Part shown: positions 9,799-52,122 of the stretch, piece after piece
How the letters are laid out: each line of letters opens with the position of its first letter
Numbering within the stretch: the stretch's first letter is position 1
Assembly: GCF_001304615.2 (NCBI RefSeq)
Contig: NZ_CP032683.1
Location: 1,240,001-1,304,000 of the forward strand
DNA from: Methanosarcina flavescens
Lineage (GTDB): Archaea > Halobacteriota > Methanosarcinia > Methanosarcinales > Methanosarcinaceae
Direction of reading: 5' to 3'
Length of the DNA stretch: 64,000 nt
Translations under genes and position numbers: made by a program
Notes under the pieces: model-generated
Told to the model about the DNA's origin: nothing
Seen by the model: the letters and a program-made list of their open reading frames with translations, nothing else
The model's database searches: none

Positions 9799-11202
9799 TC
9801 AGGCTATCTGCTTTCTAAAGGTGTTGCAGGAATTTATCTTTATATCGAGCAGCTTCTCGATATTCATTTTTGCAGCAATGCCATTTGCAGCTCCAGGGAC
9901 TGAGGTAATCACACCGATATCGAGTTCTTCACGCAGCTCGCGCATGACATGCTCGTCTACCAGGTCCATTACATCGACTCCGAGTTTTTTTGCCACGTAT
10001 TCTTTTGCCTCGCCTATGCGCATGTTCTTTGAGAACTGCATCCTTGCAACAAGGTCGCCTGCAGCTCTTATTCCAGTCATTCCAGAAGCCATTATGTGGG
10101 AAATCGGCATACCCAGAGGGTCGCCGACCCCGATCTATATGCCGTCGACGCCTGCAATTTCGACCATTGCCTTGCTTGCCCTCGTAACAGCATCAATCGG
10201 AGGAGTTTCAAGCATGGGGATTCCGCCGACTCCCATACCCATATCAACGTGACAGGGAATTGGAGAAGCTTCCACAGCTGCCTTCATGAAGGTAACTGCA
10301 CGGGCAAGGTTCCAGGCTGAGGTTTTGCTGGTATTTGTATTACAGACAGGCCCGAAAACATTTGCTCCGGCTTTTGCAACAAGAGGAGCCTGCTGATGAG
10401 GCCAGAGCCCTGCAAGGGTTACTCCGTCATACTGAAGGTTTCCGTGCATACCAAGTACGCATTCCCCTGCCATTCCTGCTTCTATGTACATGTCAGGGAA
10501 TTCCTTTCTAAGGGCCTGGATTGCATGGAGGGTACCGTACATATCAGCGTCTCCTGCTGCACCTGTTGTGTCGAAATTGACACCATCGGCTCCTGAGGCA
10601 AAGAGTTTCTGCATAACCCATACAGTATCCCTTGTCAGGTGCTCGGCTGCATATTCCATTGATTCCCAGGCTTTCTGAATCTTGAAAGCCTTCATAAGGT
10701 CACCGGGGTTCTCGAAAGGACCATCAGGGGTATAATAGAGTCCCATATTGGGCATTGCACCGTAAAACAGCGGAATAATCATGTTCTGCTGGCAAACTTC
10801 CATTGCCTGGCACTCGTTTGAAACAACAGGCTTTACAGGCTTGAAGCTGTAGTCAATGTGTCCCAGTTCCATTGTGTCGGCACCAAAAGCCCGCTCGTGC
10901 ATCATGCACCCAACAAGCCGGCTTGAAGGAATTCCAACGCCACTGTTACCCTGGTCACCGTCAAGCCTTATAGTACCAATGTCGTGCGTTACAGGAACTT
11001 CCATGCCCTGTTCCACACTTACGGCCTTACCCGGCATCATCAGAATTTCTGCAAGCTTATCAACCTCATTGGCATTCAGAGTGGGAATTTCACCAAGGTC
11101 AGCAGCATTTGCAGTACCTGCCTCAATTTCCTCCATGATCTTCTCTTTTGTAAGGAAGATTCTCTTTCCGTCTCCCATACGCAAAGCATATTCTGTTGCC
11201 AT
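9799..11202 (-). CDS. mtbB: Dimethylamine methyltransferase MtbB with in-frame amber codon (pyrrolysine), copy 1
   Basis: Reading the TAG at 10135-10137 as a sense codon gives 467 residues, the family length, with the special residue at 356 as known for MtbB. Without readthrough the product would stop at 355. The enzyme moves a methyl group from dimethylamine to the corrinoid protein MtbC, and the pyrrolysine imine ring activates the substrate. The 3' part after the amber codon (from [20 protein letters not shown]) is clearly the same protein. GGTGAGAG lies 5 nt before the ATG. It is the last gene of the mttB-mttC-mttP run. Residues 1-160 and 320-450 are nearly identical to copy 2 at 15610, while the middle differs. 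Confidence 0.96.
10105..10144 (-). promoter_or_regulatory. Stem-loop enclosing the mtbB amber codon (copy 1)
   Basis: On the mRNA strand CGGCATA stands directly before UAG, and TATGCCG stands 26 nt after the amber codon, giving a 7-bp closing stem. Inside it GGGTCG-G-CGACCC forms a perfect 6-bp hairpin (plus-strand 10118-10130). The amber codon therefore sits at the base of a nested structure. A downstream PYLIS element has been proposed for methylamine methyltransferase genes; whether it is needed is debated. Confidence 0.5.
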
Positions 11203-11263
11203 TTTTCTCTCACCTTTTCCATTTATCTTTAATAATCCAATTTAATAAGCTGTATTTTGGGGC

Positions 11264-11413
11264 TCAGAATTTGGATACAAAGGTTCTGGCCTGCCAGAGG
11301 GCTATTATTGCCAAAATCAGGATAAAAACCATCCACATGATATCGGCTGCCGGTATGAAAGAATTCGCCCAGTAGTTGTTGTAAGCCTCCAGAGCCACTG
11401 CTGTTTGTGTCAT
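11264..11413 (-). CDS. 49-residue single-span membrane protein in the methylamine operon
   Basis: ATG at 11413, GAGGG 6 nt upstream, TGA at 11264-11266. The N-terminal half is amphipathic with Asn and Trp (EAYNNYWANSF). Residues 22-42 form one membrane helix (MWMVFILILAIIALW), and the end RTFVSKF is basic. It lies 18 nt after the 98-residue gene and 61 nt before mtbB, all on the same strand, so it is very likely translated from the operon mRNA. The size and topology suggest an accessory subunit or regulator of the permease MttP, which is inference only. I do not recognise a family. Confidence 0.72.
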   Translation of the reverse strand: MTQTAVALEAYNNYWANSFIPAADIMWMVFILILAIIALWQARTFVSKF

Positions 11414-11431
11414 ATTTTTCCCTCTTTGAGA

Positions 11432-11728
11432 TTATAAGCCTCTAAGGCAGGCATCGGTTGCCCTGGTTATTCCGAAGTCAGTTATCCTGTACCTGTGCAG
11501 AAGGAAACCTTTTTTGTAGATTCCATTCTCGTCAACTTTCTGCTCCAGATCTTTCAACATCCCTCCGGATGCCAGTTCGATAATATCGAAGTTTATACTG
11601 TCCCTGCCGTAGCTGCTCTTCATGCCATATTCTTCCTGAATCTTCGAAACGACCTCGTAATTCCAGTACTCTTTCCCATCAAGGAAAAGTTCCAGAATCC
11701 TGAACTTAATAGGACGTCTTTGGCTCAT
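11432..11728 (-). CDS. 98-residue hypothetical, winged-helix-like, in the methylamine operon
   Basis: The ATG follows the mttP stop directly (TGA then ATGAG), with GAGGTGAG as ribosome site inside the end of mttP, so translation is probably coupled. The protein opens RRPIKFRILELFLDGKEYWNYEVVSKIQEEYG, which reads as helix-turn-helix: a short helix, a loop, then a second helix. It closes with LHRYRITDFGITRA, like the wing strand and last helix of small winged-helix regulators. DNA binding is inferred from this pattern. It is one of two uncharacterised proteins between mttP and mtbB. Confidence 0.75.
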   Translation of the reverse strand: MSQRRPIKFRILELFLDGKEYWNYEVVSKIQEEYGMKSSYGRDSINFDIIELASGGMLKDLEQKVDENGIYKKGFLLHRYRITDFGITRATDACLRGL

Positions 11729-12775
11729 TCACTCACCTCTCAGGGTTTCAAGTGCACCTGTATCTTCAGTAAACATGATGAAACTCCCTGCGATACAGAG
11801 CAAACCACCTAAAACAATAGTCCATTCTGGCACGTCTCCGAAGAAGAGGAATATGAATATGACAGCGCAGAACCCGTATAGGTTTCCAATGCCCTGACCT
11901 CTTCCAACTCCTATTAGCGGAAAAGATTTGTACCAGGTAACATAACAGAAACCAAATGTGATACCTGCGAAGACCAAGACCAGCAGAGTTAAAGGCTCGA
12001 AAACTTGGAATGCAAATGAGTACATCGGAAAGCCAAGGATTGCCAAAATCGGCACGATAATAATCCACCAGATTATGTTTTCTCCAAGGAAACGAAGGGT
12101 AAGCCCCGCATCCGGCTCTGCGATGTCAAGTCCTTTACCTGCAATTGCACCTTCAATACCCCAGCCAGCAGCAGCCATCAAACCTCCGAGATATCCTATC
12201 CAGGGGATGTTACCTGAAGAAAGTTCTGACAGAACTCCGCCACCGTAAATAGAAATACCTCCAAGGACGATGATTCCAATGCCGATTATTGCCCTCTTTG
12301 AGATTTTTTCTCCGTACCAGTAATAGGCAAGAATCGAACCTATAACAGGATAAAGAAGGCCGGCAACAGCTGCAAATGCTCCTCCTATAAAGCCCATAGC
12401 AATAAAAGAACCGAGAATTGCCATCGGGCCACCGAAGATAGATGCAACGAAGAACCACTTGGAGCAGGGATGGAATTCCTTAAGGGTCCTGCCCAGTTCT
12501 CCGTACTTTCCAAGCACTCCATTCCAGAGCATAAGCGCAAGCATAACAGTGAGTGCATTGAAGGCAGTGATCAGAACAGCAGTAACAACAAGGGACATAC
12601 CGTCTCCGCTTGCTTTGGCAATGGCAGCATACATCTCATCGAAGGGGTTGAGTACCCAGACAACAGTTCCTGGCAGATACCAGATTCCCCAGAAAACAGC
12701 ACAGAAAAGGGCCCACATATACCCTTTATTGATTTTTCTTTTACTTTCCTGTTTTTTTAAAGTTATTAAATCCAC
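11729..12775 (-). CDS. mttP: MttP, putative trimethylamine permease
   Basis: 348 residues with about ten membrane segments and a short basic cytoplasmic start (KKQESKRKINKGY). The two-half arrangement resembles EamA/DMT-type transporters. Glycine-rich helices such as GGPMAILGSFIAMGFIGGAFAAVAG and the repeat of a GWGIEGAI-type helix are visible. The position directly after mttC matches the gene called mttP in Methanosarcina methylamine operons, where it is thought to import trimethylamine. It is followed without a gap by a small gene at 11728. Transport has not been shown directly for most homologues. Confidence 0.88.
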   Translation of the reverse strand: MDLITLKKQESKRKINKGYMWALFCAVFWGIWYLPGTVVWVLNPFDEMYAAIAKASGDGMSLVVTAVLITAFNALTVMLALMLWNGVLGKYGELGRTLKEFHPCSKWFFVASIFGGPMAILGSFIAMGFIGGAFAAVAGLLYPVIGSILAYYWYGEKISKRAIIGIGIIVLGGISIYGGGVLSELSSGNIPWIGYLGGLMAAAGWGIEGAIAGKGLDIAEPDAGLTLRFLGENIIWWIIIVPILAILGFPMYSFAFQVFEPLTLLVLVFAGITFGFCYVTWYKSFPLIGVGRGQGIGNLYGFCAVIFIFLFFGDVPEWTIVLGGLLCIAGSFIMFTEDTGALETLRGE

Positions 12776-12997
12776 AAAATTCCCTCCATTTTTCAGAATA
12801 CTGTGGAACTCCCTCAGGGGTGGGGGTCTCCCAGTCCCAATTCCACAGCCTGAAGGTGCAGCCTGCGAATATCTGCAAGATATTTCTTGCTTATGTCAAC
12901 ATCAGGGATCCGCAAAAACTGCACAATAAACTGTGGCAGAAAATGCGTTCCGAAGATCACATTTTCTACAGTTTAAACCGTTTACTAGGGCTGTTTC
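12776..12997 (-). other. mttC-mttP spacer with hairpin
   Basis: 222 bp inside the operon, unusually long compared with the other gene junctions. It holds the palindrome AATATCT-GC-AAGATATT at 12868-12884 and GC-rich patches near 12820. No reading frame is credible. It may be an mRNA processing or stability site that sets the ratio of the abundant MttC to MttP; this is inference. Confidence 0.4.
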
Positions 12998-13651
12998 TCA
13001 GTTTTTCAAGGCTGCTTTTACCTTAGCGACTGCATCGTTAGCGCTTTCACCGTAGATGTCTGCACCGATCTTGTCTGCCCAGTCCTGGGTTACAGGAGCG
13101 CCTCCAACCATAGTCTTTACCTGATCGCGGATACCTGCCTCTTTCAGCTGTTCTTCAATCTGGATCTGGTTTACCATTGTGGTTGTCATAAGTGCGGAGG
13201 ATGCGACAACCACGGGATTGTGTTCTTTTACGGCATCGACATAGTTTTTAATTGGAACATCCCTTCCAAGATCCACAACTTTGAAACCTGCAATGTTGAG
13301 CATGGAGGCTACGATGTCCTTTCCAATGGAGTGAATGTCACCTTCTATGGTTCCGATAACAACAGTTCCAAGGTTCTTTGTCTCGGACTTACGCTTCTCC
13401 ATTTCCGGTGTAATGATATTTATTCCTGCTTTCATCGCCTCTGCGGCTGCAATCACATGTGGCAGGAAAAGAGATCCCTGTTCGAACTGTTCCCCTACTT
13501 CTTCCATGCCTGCAGTATATCCTTTTTCAATAAGCTCTACAGGATCAATCCCTGCAGCAAGGGCTTCTTCTGCGACTTCAGCCGCCATTTCCTCGTCGAA
13601 CTCGGTAATCGCTTCTTTTGCTTTTGCAATGATTTCTTCTTTGCTTGCCAT
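12998..13651 (-). CDS. mttC: MttC, trimethylamine corrinoid protein
   Basis: 217 residues from the ATG at 13651, chosen because AGGAG lies 8 nt before it and because the N-terminus MASKEE matches MtbC; an upstream in-frame start at 13747 would run back into mttB. The N-terminal four-helix cap domain (residues 1-90) precedes the B12 domain with the base-off motif GDIHSIGKD near residue 106 and VGGAP further on. The histidine coordinates cobalt. It takes the methyl group from trimethylamine via MttB and passes it to CoM via MtbA, which is not in this window. It lies 25 nt after mttB. Confidence 0.95.
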   Translation of the reverse strand: MASKEEIIAKAKEAITEFDEEMAAEVAEEALAAGIDPVELIEKGYTAGMEEVGEQFEQGSLFLPHVIAAAEAMKAGINIITPEMEKRKSETKNLGTVVIGTIEGDIHSIGKDIVASMLNIAGFKVVDLGRDVPIKNYVDAVKEHNPVVVASSALMTTTMVNQIQIEEQLKEAGIRDQVKTMVGGAPVTQDWADKIGADIYGESANDAVAKVKAALKN

Positions 13652-13676
13652 TTTTAGATCTCCTGATATCCTGTCT

Positions 13677-15164
13677 TTACATACCTCTGAAGGCTTTATC
13701 AGCCCTGTCCACGACAGCCTGCATATCCTTGAGGATATCTGCATCAATTGGTTTTACCTGGTGGTTCTTAAGAATGTCCTCTACTTTTTCATGCGCAACT
13801 GCTGCAAGATCTTTTGAGCCTGCTGCTGCCCAATCTCCATACATGCGTCTGTCAATGAGCATTGGGCTGGAAGGATAGTCTATAAGCTGCCTGGTCTGTT
13901 TGAGGGCAAGGAAATTGTTTCCGATGCCTACTTTCTGGATGGATTCCACTGACAACGTTTCTTCTGAGACAGGAATTCCTTGCATAGCCTTCTTGACCAT
14001 ACTGATAATATCATTGTCAATTACCAGCTGCTCCATTGAGAAGGTCATTCCAAGCTCAAGCATTCCGGCTCCGTAGATAGTGTTTGCTCCTGCAAGGGCT
14101 GGAAGGAGGGTGGTTATGGTTTTTTCGTGTCCTGCCTGGTTGTCCGGGATCTTCGCATCAGACTAGGAACCTGCCACAAAGGAGGGTAGGCCATAGAACT
14201 GGGCAAGTTTCGCGACAGCGCCGCTTATCAAGCCGAGTTCAGGAGATCCGACAGGAGCAGTTCCTTTTTTCAGGTCAAAGGTAGTTGTGGAACTTCCATA
14301 CCAGACTTTGCTTCCTGGAACAGTCAACTGGGCAAGCACAATTCCTGAAAGCACTTCGGCATTGTGGGTTACAAGAGTGCCTGCAAGATAAACAGGAGAA
14401 GATCCGCCTGACATTGCCATACTCAGAACGTTAACCGGAATTCCGAGACGGGCGCCTTTAATAATAACCTGGCAGGCATTGACACTGAGTTCGAGCGGGC
14501 TGGTCGGACAGAGCAGCATGGAGAAAATCGGTTTTTTCCTTGCCTCTTCTTCGTCACCGCCATAGTATGCTTTTACAATGTCCCAGTAATATTCGACGTT
14601 TTCGCCGACGGGGTCGATGTGATGATAGTGTTTAGAGGTGTTTGCAAGTGGTGTGAGGGTTTCGTGGACATCCTGTGCACCCTGGCCTGCAACGTCCCTT
14701 GCAGAAACTGGTAGTGAGAAGTAGTCAATGTTCTCTGCCCAGTCGCAGAGTTTTGCGATATCTGCAATGTCCTGCTCAACGGAGTCAACTGTTACATACT
14801 TGCCGTCCTGGTATTTGCAGACCTTGACACCGGTACCGAAACAGGTCCAGTGCACTTTACCACCACATTCCTGGACAGTATTGTTCTTTTTATCGCGGCC
14901 CCAGAGGACAAATCTGGAAGGCGCAAGCTGAAGAGCTTTTCTTACAAGATATTCAGGGATTTTTACAACGTTGGTTTTCTCGTCGACTTCGCAGCCATTT
15001 TCTTTGAAGATCTGCCTTGCTTCGGGATCAGAAACCTGAACACCTGGGTTCATCAGAACTTCCATGGTTGCATAGTGAATTGCCTTAAGTTCGTCATTAG
15101 TAAAAAGGTTTAATTCTACACCATTAAGTGCATTAAATCCTGCAACTGCATTATTTTTTGCCAT
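13677..15164 (-). CDS. mttB: Trimethylamine methyltransferase MttB with in-frame amber codon (pyrrolysine)
   Basis: The TAG at 14163-14165, read as sense, gives 495 residues with pyrrolysine at 334, matching the known MttB. It demethylates trimethylamine to dimethylamine and methylates the cobalt of MttC. The sequence before the amber codon ends [12 protein letters not shown] and after it continues [14 protein letters not shown], both family hallmarks. Non-pyrrolysine members of the MttB superfamily lack this codon. The stem-loop that surrounds the amber codon in mtbB is not obvious here. A 445-bp gap upstream suggests it has its own promoter separate from mtbC-mtbB. GGAGAGAGG lies before the ATG. 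Confidence 0.96.
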
Positions 15165-15609
15165 TTCCTCTCTCCTTATTATCGAATTTCCTAAATTTGC
15201 TTTTGTTCACTTTTACCGCACCAGAGAAAACCTGTTTTTTCTCTAGGGCAGGATTCGGTAGAAATGTGAGCAGGAATAAATTTTCTGGGATGGATCTAAA
15301 ACAACTTCAAGAGTTTTTCTGACAAAGCCTGGCGATTCTACCTATGTCTAAAAAAGAAAAGTTTGATATCCCCACACCCCTGAGATTCCTGTTCCGCCTC
15401 CTCTAGCCGCTTCTCCAAAACCCTAAAGAGCCATTCTCCTCGATTGCATTTACAGAGAAAAACCGCGCTGCCTTTTGGCAAAATCTCATACTTTTTACGG
15501 ATTAAATCCCTGTAACTTTAATTTTTCCAGATTATATAACCATATACCTTATAACACCTAATATAATTTCTTGATAATTTCCTCTGATTTTTCTGATAAA
15601 ATTTTCCTC
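15165..15609 (-). promoter_or_regulatory. Spacer between mtbB copy 2 and mttB, probable mttB promoter and leader
   Basis: 445 bp with no gene. A hairpin CCAGAGAAAA/TTTTCTCTAGG at 15221-15247 lies about 60-80 nt upstream of the mttB start and would fold in the mttB leader. AT-rich candidates for a TATA box are at 15525-15580. Long 5' leaders are known for Methanosarcina methyltransferase operons. Confidence 0.4.
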
Positions 15610-17016
15610 TTACTCTCTTATCTGTCTTCTAAAGGTGTTGCAGGAATTTATCTTTATATCGAGCAGCTTCTCGATATTCATTTTTGCAGCAATGCCTTTT
15701 GCAGCTCCAGGGACTGAGGTAATCACACCGATATCGAGTTCTTCACGCAGCTCGCGCATGACATGCTCGTCTACGAGATCCATGACATCGACTCCGAATT
15801 TTTTTGCCACGTATTCTTTTGCCTCGCCTATGCGCATGTTCTTTGAGAACTGCATCCTTGCAACAAGGTCACCTGCAGCTCTTATTCCTGTCATACCAGA
15901 AGCCATTATGTGGGAAATCGGCATACCCAGAGGGTCGCCGACCCCGATCTATATGCCATCGACGCCTGCAATTTCGACCATTGCCTTGCTTGCCCTCGTA
16001 ACAGCATCAATCGGAGGAGTTTCAAGCATGGGGATTCCGCCGACTCCCATGCCCATATCAACATGGCAGGGCAGGGTGGAAACCTTAACTGCTTCTTTTA
16101 TGAAGGTAACTGCACGGGCAAGGTTCCAGACTGAAGTCTTGCTTGTATTTGTGTTTACCACAGGCCCGAAAACGTTTGCTCCGGCTTTTGCAACAAGAGG
16201 AGCCTGCTGATGAGGCCAGAGCCCTGCAAGGGTCACTCCATCATACTGAAGGTTTCCGTGCATGCCAAGCACCATTTCCCCTGCCATTCCTACTTCAATG
16301 TACATATCAGGGAACTCCTTTCTAAGGGCTTCGACCGCATGGAGGGTACCGTACATATCAGCATCTCCTGCAGCCGCAGTTGTGTCGAAGTTGACACCAT
16401 CGGCTCCTGAAGCAAAGAGTTTCTGCATAATCCATATAGTATCCCTTGTCAGGTGTTCTGCAGCGTGTTCCATTGATTCCCAGGCTTCCTGAATCTTGAA
16501 AGCTTTCATAAGGTCACCGGGGTTCTCGAAAGGACCATCAGGGGTATAATAGAGTCCCATATTGGGCATTGCACCGTAAAACAGCGGAATAATCATGTTC
16601 TGCTGGCAAACTTCCATTGCCTGGCACTCGTTTGAAACAACAGGCTTTACAGGCTTGAAGCTGTAGTCAATGTGTCCCAGTTCCATTGTGTCGGCACCAA
16701 AAGCCCGCTCGTGCATCATGCACCCAACAAGCCGGCTTGAAGGAATTCCAACGCCACTGTTACCCTGGTCACCGTCAAGCCTTATAGTACCAATGTCGTG
16801 CGTTACAGGAACTTCCATGCCCTGTTCCACACTTACGGCCTTACCCGGCATCATCAGAATTTCTGCAAGCTTGTCAACCTCATTGGCATTCAGAGTGGGA
16901 ATTTCACCAAGGTCAGCAGCATTTGCAGTACCTGCCTCAATTTCCTCCATAATCTTCTCTTTTGTAAGGAAGATTCTCTTTCCGTCTCCCATACGCAAAG
17001 CATATTCTGTTGCCAT
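15610..17016 (-). CDS. mtbB: Dimethylamine methyltransferase MtbB with in-frame amber codon (pyrrolysine), copy 2
   Basis: Amber TAG at 15949-15951; readthrough gives 468 residues with pyrrolysine at 356. It performs the same reaction as the copy at 9799 (dimethylamine to MtbC). It starts 6 nt after the mtbC stop, so the corrinoid partner and methyltransferase are cotranscribed. Compared with copy 1, the first ~160 codons and the region around the amber codon are almost identical even at silent sites. Residues 170-315 carry many replacements (for example MVLGMH for CVLGMH and VVNTNT for VCNTNT), and the last residues differ (RRQIRE versus RKQIA). Confidence 0.96.
15919..15958 (-). promoter_or_regulatory. 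Stem-loop enclosing the mtbB amber codon (copy 2)
   Basis: Same structure as in copy 1: the closing arms are TGGCATA, immediately before UAG, and TATGCCG. The single base change relative to copy 1 keeps pairing as a U-G wobble. The inner GGGTCG/CGACCC hairpin is unchanged. Confidence 0.5.
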
Positions 17017-44845: not shown

Positions 44846-46294
44846 TCAGATCTTTTTCTTTAATACGCAGTACCCGGCAATAATCATGAAAAGTGGTAAG
44901 GAAATTGCCATAAATATCCTGGCTGCCCCCATCGGATTCTTGATTCTACTATTTCCTCCCGCGTTTCCGCTCATAGCTATTCTTCCTTCGCTTCCAATGC
45001 TTCTCAGGGGTATCTTATTTGCGCCTCGGATTTCTCCATTTCCTTCATATTCCGTTATTGCAAAGAAAGAATAGCCAGGAGTTTCCGCTTCAAAATAAAC
45101 GTAATTCTTGTCTTCTCTGACTTTTTCAGTATAAAGAGGATGCCAATCTTCGTCGTACCTTTGGAGAGTTATCAGAGTCTCATTAATATTCTCATCTTTA
45201 ATCCACGATTTTTCAACCTTAAACCCTATAAGTCCGTTTCTAATGGAAGTGGGAAGTCCTGCTCCCTTATCTCCTACCCAGACATTTACATGTTTATAAA
45301 CTGTGCCTTGAGGAGTTGCCGGGACAAGAGTAGATTTGCTTTTAAGTTCTTCTACAACTGTTGTCGTTCTCCTGAAGGTCTTCTTCGGATCAAATTTGAT
45401 ATAGGTAACGCATGTGACATTTTCTACAAAGTCAAATTTGACAGGATAACCACTTATAACGCTTCTGGTGACAAGTTCCTTGGCGGCAATATTGCTCGCA
45501 TCCTCACTAGAAACAAGGTTCATTCCCCAACCGCTAGAGGACGAACTGCCAAAAGAGGATGAATTGTTAGTAGGGGATGAACTATCGGTAGAAGAATTGG
45601 AATTATTATCTTCTTTATTTTCCCTGTTATCTAAAGTTACAGTATTCGGATTTTTGGTGTTTGGATTTTGTTTATTTGGACTCTTTTTATTTGGACTTCT
45701 CTCATTTGGACTCTTTTTATTTGGACTTCTCTCATTTGGATTCTCCTCATTTGGGCTTTCCTCATTTGGATCCTCCTCATTTGGATTCTCCTCATTTGGA
45801 TTCTCCTCATTTGGATTCTCCTCATTTGGATTCTCCTCATTTGGATTCTCCTCATTTGGATTCTCCTCATTTGGATCCTCCTCATTTGGATTCTCCTCAT
45901 TTGGATTCTCCTCATTTGGATTCTCCTCATTTGGATTCTCCTCATTTGGATTCTCCTCATTTGGATTCTCCTCATTTGGATTCTCCTCATTTGGATTCTC
46001 CTCATTTGGATCCTCCTCATTTGGATTCTCCTCATTTGGATTCTCCTCATTTGGATTCTCCTCATTTGGATTCTCCTCATTTGGATTCTCCTCATTTGGA
46101 TCCTCCTCATTTGGGCTTTCCTCATTCGAAGTTCCATCTCTCGGATTTTCCTCATTCAGATTGGGACCTGCTGTATCACTTCCATCATTTCCGGGATCCT
46201 GATCTATAGCAGATGCCATACTGGAGATTGTCCCGGGAATTATTAGTATTATAACTAATATATAAATCAAAGAGCTAAAAAAATCGGCTTTCAT
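44846..46294 (-). CDS. Surface protein with NEENP pentapeptide repeats and PGF-pre-PGF-like domain
   Basis: 482 residues from the ATG at 46294 (GGAGG 8 nt upstream; ATG 46327 is in frame but has no site). Signal peptide (SLIYILVIILIIPGTISSMASA). Then about 30 five-residue repeats of NEENP with periodic NEEDP or NEESP and a degenerate basic end (NERSP, NKKSP). A Ser-rich linker follows. The folded domain of about 170 residues (from WGMNLVSSEDASNI, ending ETPGYSFFAITEYEG) resembles the PGF-pre-PGF domain of Methanosarcina surface proteins. A C-terminal membrane helix and KKKI anchor follow. Likely a stalk holding a domain off the cell. Confidence 0.85.
   Translation of the reverse strand: MKADFFSSLIYILVIILIIPGTISSMASAIDQDPGNDGSDTAGPNLNEENPRDGTSNEESPNEEDPNEENPNEENPNEENPNEENPNEENPNEEDPNEENPNEENPNEENPNEENPNEENPNEENPNEENPNEENPNEEDPNEENPNEENPNEENPNEENPNEENPNEENPNEEDPNEESPNEENPNERSPNKKSPNERSPNKKSPNKQNPNTKNPNTVTLDNRENKEDNNSNSSTDSSSPTNNSSSFGSSSSSGWGMNLVSSEDASNIAAKELVTRSVISGYPVKFDFVENVTCVTYIKFDPKKTFRRTTTVVEELKSKSTLVPATPQGTVYKHVNVWVGDKGAGLPTSIRNGLIGFKVEKSWIKDENINETLITLQRYDEDWHPLYTEKVREDKNYVYFEAETPGYSFFAITEYEGNGEIRGANKIPLRSIGSEGRIAMSGNAGGNSRIKNPMGAARIFMAISLPLFMIIAGYCVLKKKI
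45640..46135. repeat. 15-bp coding minisatellite
   Basis: Unit CTCATTTGGATTCTC (plus strand) repeated about 30 times, nearly perfect from 45740 to 46115. Variant units containing GGATCC (Asp in place of Asn) are spaced 6, 9 and 7 units apart, suggesting larger blocks were duplicated. Because 15 is a multiple of 3 and the unit lacks stops, other frames are open too and create false long ORFs on both strands. Confidence 0.97.
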
Positions 46295-46327
46295 CTTATT
46301 GGCCTCCACCCATGCGTCAGTAAACAA

Positions 46328-49625: not shown

Positions 49626-50375
49626 TTAAATGAATTCCAATTCTTCAGATGATCTTTTTTTGCTTTTGTCCCGGCTTCCGGGTTCGGGTTCATTTTCGAT
49701 TTCCGGAAGATGTTTCAGGTACTCTTTCATCATCATGGGAAAAGTATTTGCAGGCACAAAACGGACTCCAAGCTGCTCGGCCCACTTCTCAATCCCATAA
49801 TCGCTTGCAATAACTGCGGCGTCAAGCTCCTTGGCAAGGATGAGAACATCAATATCAGGAGCACTATCAAGAATCCCATATCTCAGGGCAGCACGATACT
49901 TATTCCGAAATTTGCCAATGATCCCCCCGATTACTTCCCTCTCAACTTCTTCCTTATACTCTTTTTTCTTATTTTGCGGATTTTCCATGAAGAGGCACTC
50001 AGTAGCGGCTTCCCATATCGCATCTTCTGCAACTCCCATGCCCCGGTTGATCCTTTCCCGCATATAAGCAACATATTCATGAAAAATCTGAGAAGTTACA
50101 CTAACCCTATATCGGTCAGGAGATTTCTTCACAAGCCAGGTATCTATTTTTGCCATAACTTCCCTGTCACAGCCATTGTGACTTGCGAATTCATACATCT
50201 CTTTATACACTGACGGATAGGGCACATAACAGCTTATACCAAACTGCAGGCGAACATTGGCTATCAGATCAAGGATTGCCTTCATTCCCTCACAAAGGGA
50301 AGCATAGCCCATAACCTCACGCGTCTGCAGGTCCGTTAATGCTGTAGTATCCAGCACGAATCTCTGTTTGAGCAT
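49626..50375 (-). CDS. HARP, protein-only RNase P homologue (PIN domain)
   Basis: 249 residues. PIN-type start [15 protein letters not shown] with the first catalytic Asp, Asp/Glu residues in the middle, and [30 protein letters not shown] near the end. The central helical insertion matches the 'RNA ligase partner'/HARP family (homologues of Aquifex RNase P). It can trim tRNA 5' leaders in vitro. Deletion studies in Haloferax and Methanosarcina mazei indicated it is not the main RNase P there. The acidic/basic tail ([20 protein letters not shown]) is a local feature. Confidence 0.88.
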
Positions 50376-50630
50376 TTTTTAAACCTTTAAGAACAGTCTT
50401 CTTTACCCATTTTATGTATTGATCAAGGATCAATAAAATTCTTTGTTTTAACCTGATTATTTACTAACTTTTTATCTTTTTTCTGTTTTTATAGTCCTTC
50501 TTTATTTTATTATTCGTTTATTTTTTAATTAAAATCAATAACTGTATATAGTTTTAAGACATATATTTCCATAGGGAAGTTAAAACCAGAGGCTAGAAAG
50601 CTGTCTAAAACGCATTTTATAAAGTGTCTC
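50376..50630. other. Promoter side of HARP and start of the leader region
   Basis: 255 bp of AT-rich DNA with T-runs. The HARP promoter should lie at 50400-50460. No gene. A 188-codon minus-strand frame spanning 50525-51091 is antisense to the structured region and the zinc-ribbon gene and is not called. Confidence 0.35.
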
Positions 50631-50963
50631 CTAATGTTGTTTCGATTCAAATGCGAAAAGCATTTTTGAACCAACATTAGAATAAATATTGCACTGTTAA
50701 TCCTTATTGTTTGCTTTTCAGCTCTGGACCGATCTTCTCGAGATCGATGTGCAAGTCGGGTAATACCGGCAGGTAGAACACAGCTCAATGTTGTGAAAGA
50801 TTGAGCCGGATTGGACATCTCAAAATAGTCCGATTCGGTATAGTATGGGTAATAAGCTGAAAATGGGGTATATAATTTGAGTGCAAACACGGAGACATTG
50901 AAACCCTGTGGAGGCTCAGCACAGGGCGTGGTGAGAAACCCTCTGAGTAAGGGAGGCGACACA
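50631..50963 (+). ncRNA. Highly structured RNA-like leader, possible group II intron fragment or cis-regulator
   Basis: Stems in order: CTAATGTTG/CAACATTAG with inner TTCAAATGC/GCATTTTTGAA (50631-50680); CGATCT/AGATCG (50730-50746); GTCGG/CCGGC (50755-50770); GCTCAAT/ATTGAGC (50783-50806); CCGGATTGGAC/GTCCGATTCGG, 11 bp with two G-U pairs (50806-50838); CCCTGTG/CACAGGG (50904-50926); CCTC/GAGG (50940-50956). The last one covers GGGAGG, the ribosome site of the next gene. GAAA and GTGAGAAA linkers recall group II intron domains, but no domain V or reverse transcriptase is present. No coding frame explains the region. Confidence 0.5.
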
Positions 50964-51308
50964 ATGAAGGAGTATTGCAATATTTGTGGTCGAGAATTGC
51001 TGGAAGACGTACTGGTTGTGGACACTAGCCTGGATATGAAACCAATAAAGTTCAAAGAGGTCCACGGGGATAAGTCCGATCTGATCTGCATTGAGTGTGC
51101 AATTGATTCGATTGAAAATCCACCCTTTGTATGTTCAAGATGCGGGCAGCCAATCGAATTTAATGAAAAGTTCTATGTGTTCAAGGAGGCAACCACAAAA
51201 CCTGGCGGTCCCAAAGTTGACTTTAAAGAGATATGCCTTGACGATAAATATATCTGCAGCACATGTTTTTCTGAGATAATGAATCCCGAGGGTGACGAAG
51301 AAGATTAA
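50964..51308 (+). CDS. Zinc-ribbon protein with four CxxC motifs
   Basis: 114 residues from the ATG at 50964 (GGGAGG 7 nt upstream). An upstream in-frame start exists at 50877 but lies in the structured leader. Cysteine pairs: CNICG (residue 5), CIEC (about 43), CSRCG (about 59) and CSTC (about 102), suggesting two zinc ribbons. It ends in an acidic tail GDEED. No catalytic motif, so it may bind nucleic acid or protein. Its ribosome site lies inside a predicted hairpin. Confidence 0.8.
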   Translation: MKEYCNICGRELLEDVLVVDTSLDMKPIKFKEVHGDKSDLICIECAIDSIENPPFVCSRCGQPIEFNEKFYVFKEATTKPGGPKVDFKEICLDDKYICSTCFSEIMNPEGDEED

Positions 51309-51729: not shown

Positions 51730-52122
51730 TTGAATGGAAGCAGTGTGATTGAAATTGGAGATATGAACTGGGGAGAAATAGTAGAGAGTTCTAAAAAACC
51801 GGTTATCGTAATGTTCTACAGCTCTACCTGCCCTTATTGCAAAGCTATGGAACCTTATTTTATAAACTATGCAAGAGAATTCGAGAACTCGGCAGTTTTT
51901 GCCCGCCTGAATATTGAAACAAATCCATGGACTGCAGAAAGGTACGGCGTTCTGGGCACGCCTACGTTTAAGTTTTTCTGCCAGGGAAGACCCGTGTGGG
52001 AGCAGGTAGGCCAGATCTATCCTTCCATACTGAAAAAGGCAGTTGAAGATATGATTAATTACGGAGAAGAGTGTATAAGGAAAAGCACTCCAATCGGTCA
52101 GGACATCACGGGATACGTTTGA
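51730..52122 (+). CDS. Thioredoxin-family protein
   Basis: 130 residues from a TTG start with GGGGGT upstream. Active site in YSSTCPYCKAMEP near residue 37 (C-P-Y-C, glutaredoxin-like). cis-Pro is in LGTPTFKFFCQG near residue 77. The fold continues GRPVWEQVGQIYPSILKKAVED. It reduces protein disulphides; the extra Cys after the cis-Pro strand is uncommon. No reductase gene is adjacent. Confidence 0.87.
   Translation: MNGSSVIEIGDMNWGEIVESSKKPVIVMFYSSTCPYCKAMEPYFINYAREFENSAVFARLNIETNPWTAERYGVLGTPTFKFFCQGRPVWEQVGQIYPSILKKAVEDMINYGEECIRKSTPIGQDITGYV

Follow-up and report, generated by a model that had tools for sequence, protein, structure and literature searches.

Upstream of a small zinc-ribbon gene of Methanosarcina flavescens lies a stretch of DNA that can form an impressive number of stems, which raises the question of whether it is transcribed as a regulatory leader, and of what kind, or whether it represents something else, such as the remains of an intron or the beginning of the gene itself. 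The window analysed here is a stretch of 64,000 nucleotides (positions 1,240,001 to 1,304,000 of contig NZ_CP032683.1) taken from a Methanosarcina chromosome of 3.28 Mb represented by a single contig. A preliminary description of this DNA had assigned positions 50631-50963 to an untranslated leader, and proposed that a last stem of this leader covers the ribosome site of a gene starting at 50964.

The zinc-ribbon locus and its start codon

The features of the locus around the start codon are the following.

49626-50375, minus strand: divergent gene for a PIN-domain 'RNA ligase partner' protein (TIGR03875)
50865-50868, plus strand: GGGG, likely ribosome site for the start at 50877, within a conserved GGGG(A/T)AT block 8 nt 5' of the start in most orthologues
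50877-51308, plus strand: double zinc-ribbon gene, probable long form, 143 amino acids, TTG start, four CxxC motifs
50904-50926, plus strand: 7-bp hairpin with a 9-nt loop
50940-50956, plus strand: possible CCTC/GAGG pairing over GGGAGG
50951-50956, plus strand: GGGAGG, ribosome site of a possible internal start ATG 50964, with a GGA codon that all 27 sequences share
51730-52122: thioredoxin-like gene, downstream neighbour of the zinc-ribbon gene

Upstream of 50964, the gene's reading frame stays open as far as 50877, and the frame from 50877 to 50963 is kept in 27 of 30 orthologues, two of them from a second genus, with the conserved N-terminal pattern [M/L]SANTExLKPxVGSAQGxVRNPLxKGGxTMKEYCNICG. 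About half of the orthologues have ATG at the position of 50877, the rest have TTG, and several orthologues carry stop codons directly upstream of this codon. Because this frame is conserved, the gene probably begins at TTG 50877. A single stop was found in the frame among 27 sequences, against a median of 42 under column permutation (13 of 2000 permutations were as low), and its pN/pS of 0.60 compares with 1.05-1.2 in the other frames. However, the column-permutation test on the pN/pS of this stretch by itself did not reach significance (153 of 2000), and the value is far higher than that of the gene body (about 0.1), so that the N-terminal extension appears to be constrained as protein only weakly relative to the body. 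Its gap fraction is 0.002. Synonymous sites differ about half as often in the extension (0.294, bootstrap 0.20-0.42) as in the body (0.57), which points to constraint at the nucleotide level as well; a second ribosome site at the GGAGG ahead of ATG 50964 would be expected to impose it.

The extension is broken in three orthologues, by one TAG in L021 and by frameshifts in L046 and L047, and several zinc-ribbon paralogues have lost its frame and retained the internal start. By standard decoding, these three orthologues and several paralogues could make the short form from ATG 50964 only, which makes both starts plausible. We favour TTG 50877 as the probable main start; a second and shorter product may also be made from ATG 50964, given the strong GGAGG ahead of it. 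The locus thus suggests a possible two-start gene. In Methanosarcina mazei, an N-terminal extension missed by the annotation has been revealed by Ribo-seq in another gene (PMC11456600).

Two of the broken copies call for separate mention. In L021, a Methanosarcina genome of 3.1 Mb, the in-frame TAG replaces a conserved CAG at codon -14 of the extension, and translation might continue through it instead of ending there, since the archaea concerned here code for pyrrolysine. A paralogue in the window genome itself (L050, G000:C1:957500-960500) is about 69% identical to the gene, has no leader and a broken extension frame, and retains both the internal start and the ribosome site belonging to it.

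The encoded protein carries four CxxC pairs, nearly all of them invariant among the orthologues. Its match to Pfam DZR_2 is weak (23.2 bits, under the cut-off of 27), its predicted structure is poor (mean pLDDT 59.9, with most of the N-terminal extension below 50), and a search against solved structures returned nothing significant. The relatives recovered by homology search all belong to the Methanosarcinaceae, in nearly every case to Methanosarcina. The order PIN gene, leader, zinc-ribbon gene and thioredoxin-like gene is the same in nearly all relatives, and in the second genus the three protein genes also stand in this order. The 'RNA ligase partner' gene thus adjoins the leader and the zinc-ribbon gene in nearly all Methanosarcina, and is also found at the locus in the second genus.

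The conserved frame changes the interpretation of several structures that had been attributed to a leader RNA, given that everything from 50877 on is probably translated. The 7-bp helix with its 9-nt loop exists (50904-50910 with 50920-50926), but lies inside the frame and is complete in 14 of 27 orthologues. The CCTC/GAGG stem can likewise form (50940-50943 with 50953-50956, in 25 of 27 orthologues) and almost never varies. This is explained by the conserved Pro-Leu and Gly-Gly codons on which it lies; the pairing shows no covariation, and its near-invariance is no evidence of a selected pairing. The strings GUGAGAAA and GAAACCC, which had been thought to resemble the linkers of group II introns, are codons of the same frame. 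None of these three elements is evidence for a switch, and the case shows that the N-terminus of a small conserved protein may be mistaken for leader RNA.

With the linkers falls the only ground for regarding the leader as a relic of a group II intron, which the preliminary description had put forward as the main alternative: the resemblance was one of style, limited to these superficial short strings. The preliminary description had itself remarked that neither a domain V nor a reverse transcriptase accompanies the region, and this holds for the whole genome, in which neither domain V (RF00029) nor the GIIM maturase domain was detected anywhere, whereas the same domain V search was positive in Methanosarcina acetivorans and the maturase search in control genomes including that species. 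No group II intron model of Rfam matches the leader, and the leader is single-copy in the genome. We consider intron ancestry already refuted as far as it can be tested, the chance that it is correct being negligible.

Borders, conservation and distribution of the leader

Upstream of the extended gene, three features delimit or mark the predicted leader.

50545-50550, plus strand: TATA box (TATATA) of the putative leader promoter, read in the sequence, the surrounding block being strongly conserved in orthologues
50574-50876, plus strand: conserved 5' leader of 303 nt, predicted to begin about 25 nt past the TATA box at a conserved GGGAAG
50734-50739, plus strand: CUUCUC, all six columns invariant among 24 aligned orthologues

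The TATA box and the highly conserved block ATAGGGAAG place the predicted transcription start near 50574, upstream of the 50631 at which the leader had initially been made to begin. The distance from this start through the start codon is nearly fixed, at 300-317 nt in 26 of 28 Methanosarcina and 285 nt in the other two. In the alignment of orthologues, the leader has a p-distance of 0.298 and a gap fraction of 0.065, against 0.477 and 0.433 in the downstream intergenic DNA and 0.472 and 0.385 in the DNA upstream of the promoter; the p-distance of the promoter is 0.201. These values support the view that the leader is under constraint relative to the neighbouring intergenic DNA. The best conserved blocks of the leader are columns 26-50 and the stretch around the ribosome site, and no upstream open reading frame within the leader is conserved across the genus. 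CUUCUC stands invariant amid variable surroundings and could pair weakly with the GGGG of the ribosome site.

A covariance model (R1) was built on the 3' part of the leader. Its structure was taken from RNAalifold, and the model therefore served to locate copies, not to support the structure. It gave one strong match per genome, at the zinc-ribbon locus, in 28 of 31 Methanosarcina genomes, and no convincing match away from that locus across the class; weak matches of the model or of DNA searches with E values of 0.004-0.09 were taken as chance. DNA searches revealed no other copy in the window genome, and no leader accompanies the zinc-ribbon paralogues. Matches of 30 nt in another genus were discarded, their context being unrelated. 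The leader was found in Methanosarcina alone and always ahead of the zinc-ribbon gene, together with which a putative promoter of its own and a long, apparently untranslated stretch are conserved.

This distribution bears on the possibility that the stretch is an independent small RNA gene, with read-through into the zinc-ribbon gene. Such a gene would account for the separate promoter, the conserved body and the high degree of structure, and M. mazei is credited with more than 200 small RNAs (Jager et al., as cited in PMC5378194). However, conservation continues unbroken from the leader across the ribosome site and on into the gene, and the leader has never been found apart from it. We judge a separate small RNA to be unlikely.

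Probable folding of the leader and its possible mode of action

The helices that can be followed among orthologues are given below.

50586-50601, plus strand: 5' strand of the putative long-range helix P1, CCAGAGGCUAGAAAGC, pairing with 50713-50727
50713-50727, plus strand: 3' strand of P1, GCUUUUCAGCUCUGG, proposed on duplex energies and one covarying pair
50631-50680, plus strand: putative hairpin H2, with an outer helix CUAAUGUUG/CAACAUUAG and an inner helix UUCAAAUGC/GCAUUUUUGAA
50805-50839, plus strand: putative hairpin H4, a long helix with two G-U pairs in which GCCGGATTGGAC (50805-50816) pairs with GTCCGATTCGGT (50828-50839)

The dense set of stems described at the outset can be read in the sequence, and the region folds better than its shuffles: the fold of 50574-50963 has an energy of -122.5 kcal/mol and a z score of -4.53, with none of 100 shuffles as good. 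The leader by itself has a z score of -4.8 in the window genome and a mean of -1.8 over 29 orthologues, compared with -0.41 for the gene body. The stretch downstream of the gene also beats its shuffles somewhat (mean -1.2), which counts against a structured leader.

In 28 of 28 orthologues the P1 duplex exceeds the shuffle mean in stability, with z scores of -0.5 to -4.4 that reach just -0.5 to -1.5 in some of them, and its energies are no better within clades than across them, the most divergent genome excepted. The inner helix of H2 has 89% paired cells and three pairs changed on both sides; the outer helix is not retained in the second clade. H4, the helix with two G-U pairs noted earlier, is real, and both clades retain it with consistent changes, its register differing between them. 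For the inner helix of H2 and H4 the 89% of paired cells fall to 20-48% when the pairing is slid, but a column-shuffle control on helix pairing was not decisive (36-39 of 500).

Of 50 pairs submitted to a tree-aware covariation test modelled on R-scape, a single one, in P1, was clearly significant (p=0.0001), and two H4 pairs reached p 0.005-0.02. P1, H2 and H4 are thus retained with consistent changes, but the covariation is weak, and the stems within 50877-50963 yielded no informative covariation. The RNAalifold consensus from the full alignment, an implausible low-energy structure, was set aside, its failure being due to the register shift of H4 between the two clades. Given the weak covariation, this register shift and the loss of an H4 arm in two genomes, folding of the leader into an RNA structure is likely, not proven. 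The two genomes are those with 285-nt leaders (L025 and L029), in which a deletion of about 25 nt takes out the 5' arm of H4 and the 3' arm is conserved; in these, either H4 is dispensable or its 3' arm has another role.

Weak covariation leaves room for a leader conserved for its sequence, as a track for a binding protein or as a DNA element, with incidental folds. The position of the best conserved blocks would agree with this, but P1 surpasses the shuffle means in all orthologues, the leader folds with lower z scores than the gene body, and H2 and H4 are retained despite sequence change. A sequence-only element is in our view improbable.

The preliminary description had seen in the region the architecture of a cis-acting RNA switch. 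A conserved, folded leader linked in cis to its gene in 28 of 31 Methanosarcina genomes agrees with the first part of this proposal; the switch architecture, by way of a last stem masking the ribosome site, does not hold. A riboswitch or RNA thermometer of the classical type would flip, in response to a ligand or to temperature, between two folds, one of them masking the ribosome site. The window genome would permit this, for the strand at about 50713-50727 can pair with 50586-50601 or, alternatively, with the ribosome-site stretch AAGCUGAAAAUGGGG, the latter duplex having an energy of -18.5 kcal/mol, and the fold of its leader is unusually stable. Over 28 orthologues, however, the masking alternative has a mean z score of about 0 and is on average no better than shuffles, and no conserved expression platform masking the ribosome site was found in them, either through CCTC/GAGG or through the P1 strand. 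Rfam scans of the window and of the region with 4227 families, the check suggested for riboswitches, produced only chance-level matches at the leader and no riboswitch class. Moreover, the leader is restricted to one gene in one genus, and CUUCUC is the sole long invariant block in its middle. A conserved switch of this type is accordingly quite unlikely.

Since a pairing that masks the ribosome site is not conserved across orthologues, we favour a leader that acts on mRNA stability and ribosome access. With moderate confidence, we propose a genus-specific structured 5' leader of about 303 nt, with its own TATA promoter, that forms the front of the zinc-ribbon mRNA and acts in cis. Transcription from this promoter would produce the leader as the front of the mRNA, P1 would close its 5' part around H2, and H4 would sit directly upstream of the ribosome site, the three helices jointly setting mRNA stability and the access of ribosomes. 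Control would probably come from a protein bound to the leader or from a physical condition, and not from a conserved ligand-driven masking helix. A more elaborate version, in which the leader senses a metal or redox signal, chooses between the in-frame starts TTG 50877 and ATG 50964 and represents a new archaeal class of cis-regulatory RNA, is speculative and would be surprising if true.

Comparison with known leaders

M. mazei and Methanolobus commonly have long 5' untranslated regions (PMC5378194), and according to Anderson 2009, as cited in PMC5112694, a cdh operon of Methanosarcina is under the control of a 5' leader. The Methanosarcina leaders share with the present case the genus Methanosarcina, a long untranslated leader and a proposed post-transcriptional control. 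In contrast to the cdh leader, the leader described here precedes a different gene, a small zinc-ribbon gene, and is known from sequence alone. RNA thermometers and other untranslated regions that mask the ribosome site (cspA; Methanolobus psychrophilus, PMC5378194) have in common with it a structured 5' region able to bury the ribosome site, a masking that is not conserved here. The riboswitch classes of Rfam resemble it in their position ahead of a gene and in their dense folding, yet it matches none of the families scanned.

The leader is thus absent from Rfam and undescribed in the literature searched, in which older Methanosarcina transcriptome work is mostly outside coverage, although leaders of its kind are known in Methanosarcina. 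Archaeal regulatory leaders are poorly catalogued. The present one, a clear case of a leader tied to a single gene throughout its genus, has defined helices that lend themselves to mutation, in methanogens amenable to genetics.

Elsewhere in the window, the Rfam scan recovered three pyrrolysine insertion elements of methylamine methyltransferase genes, on the minus strand at 10038-15951 (two PYLIS_2 and one PYLIS_3), corresponding to two copies of mtbB and one mttB. A predicted protein encoded at 44846-46327 contains a long run of NEENP/NEEDP tandem repeats.
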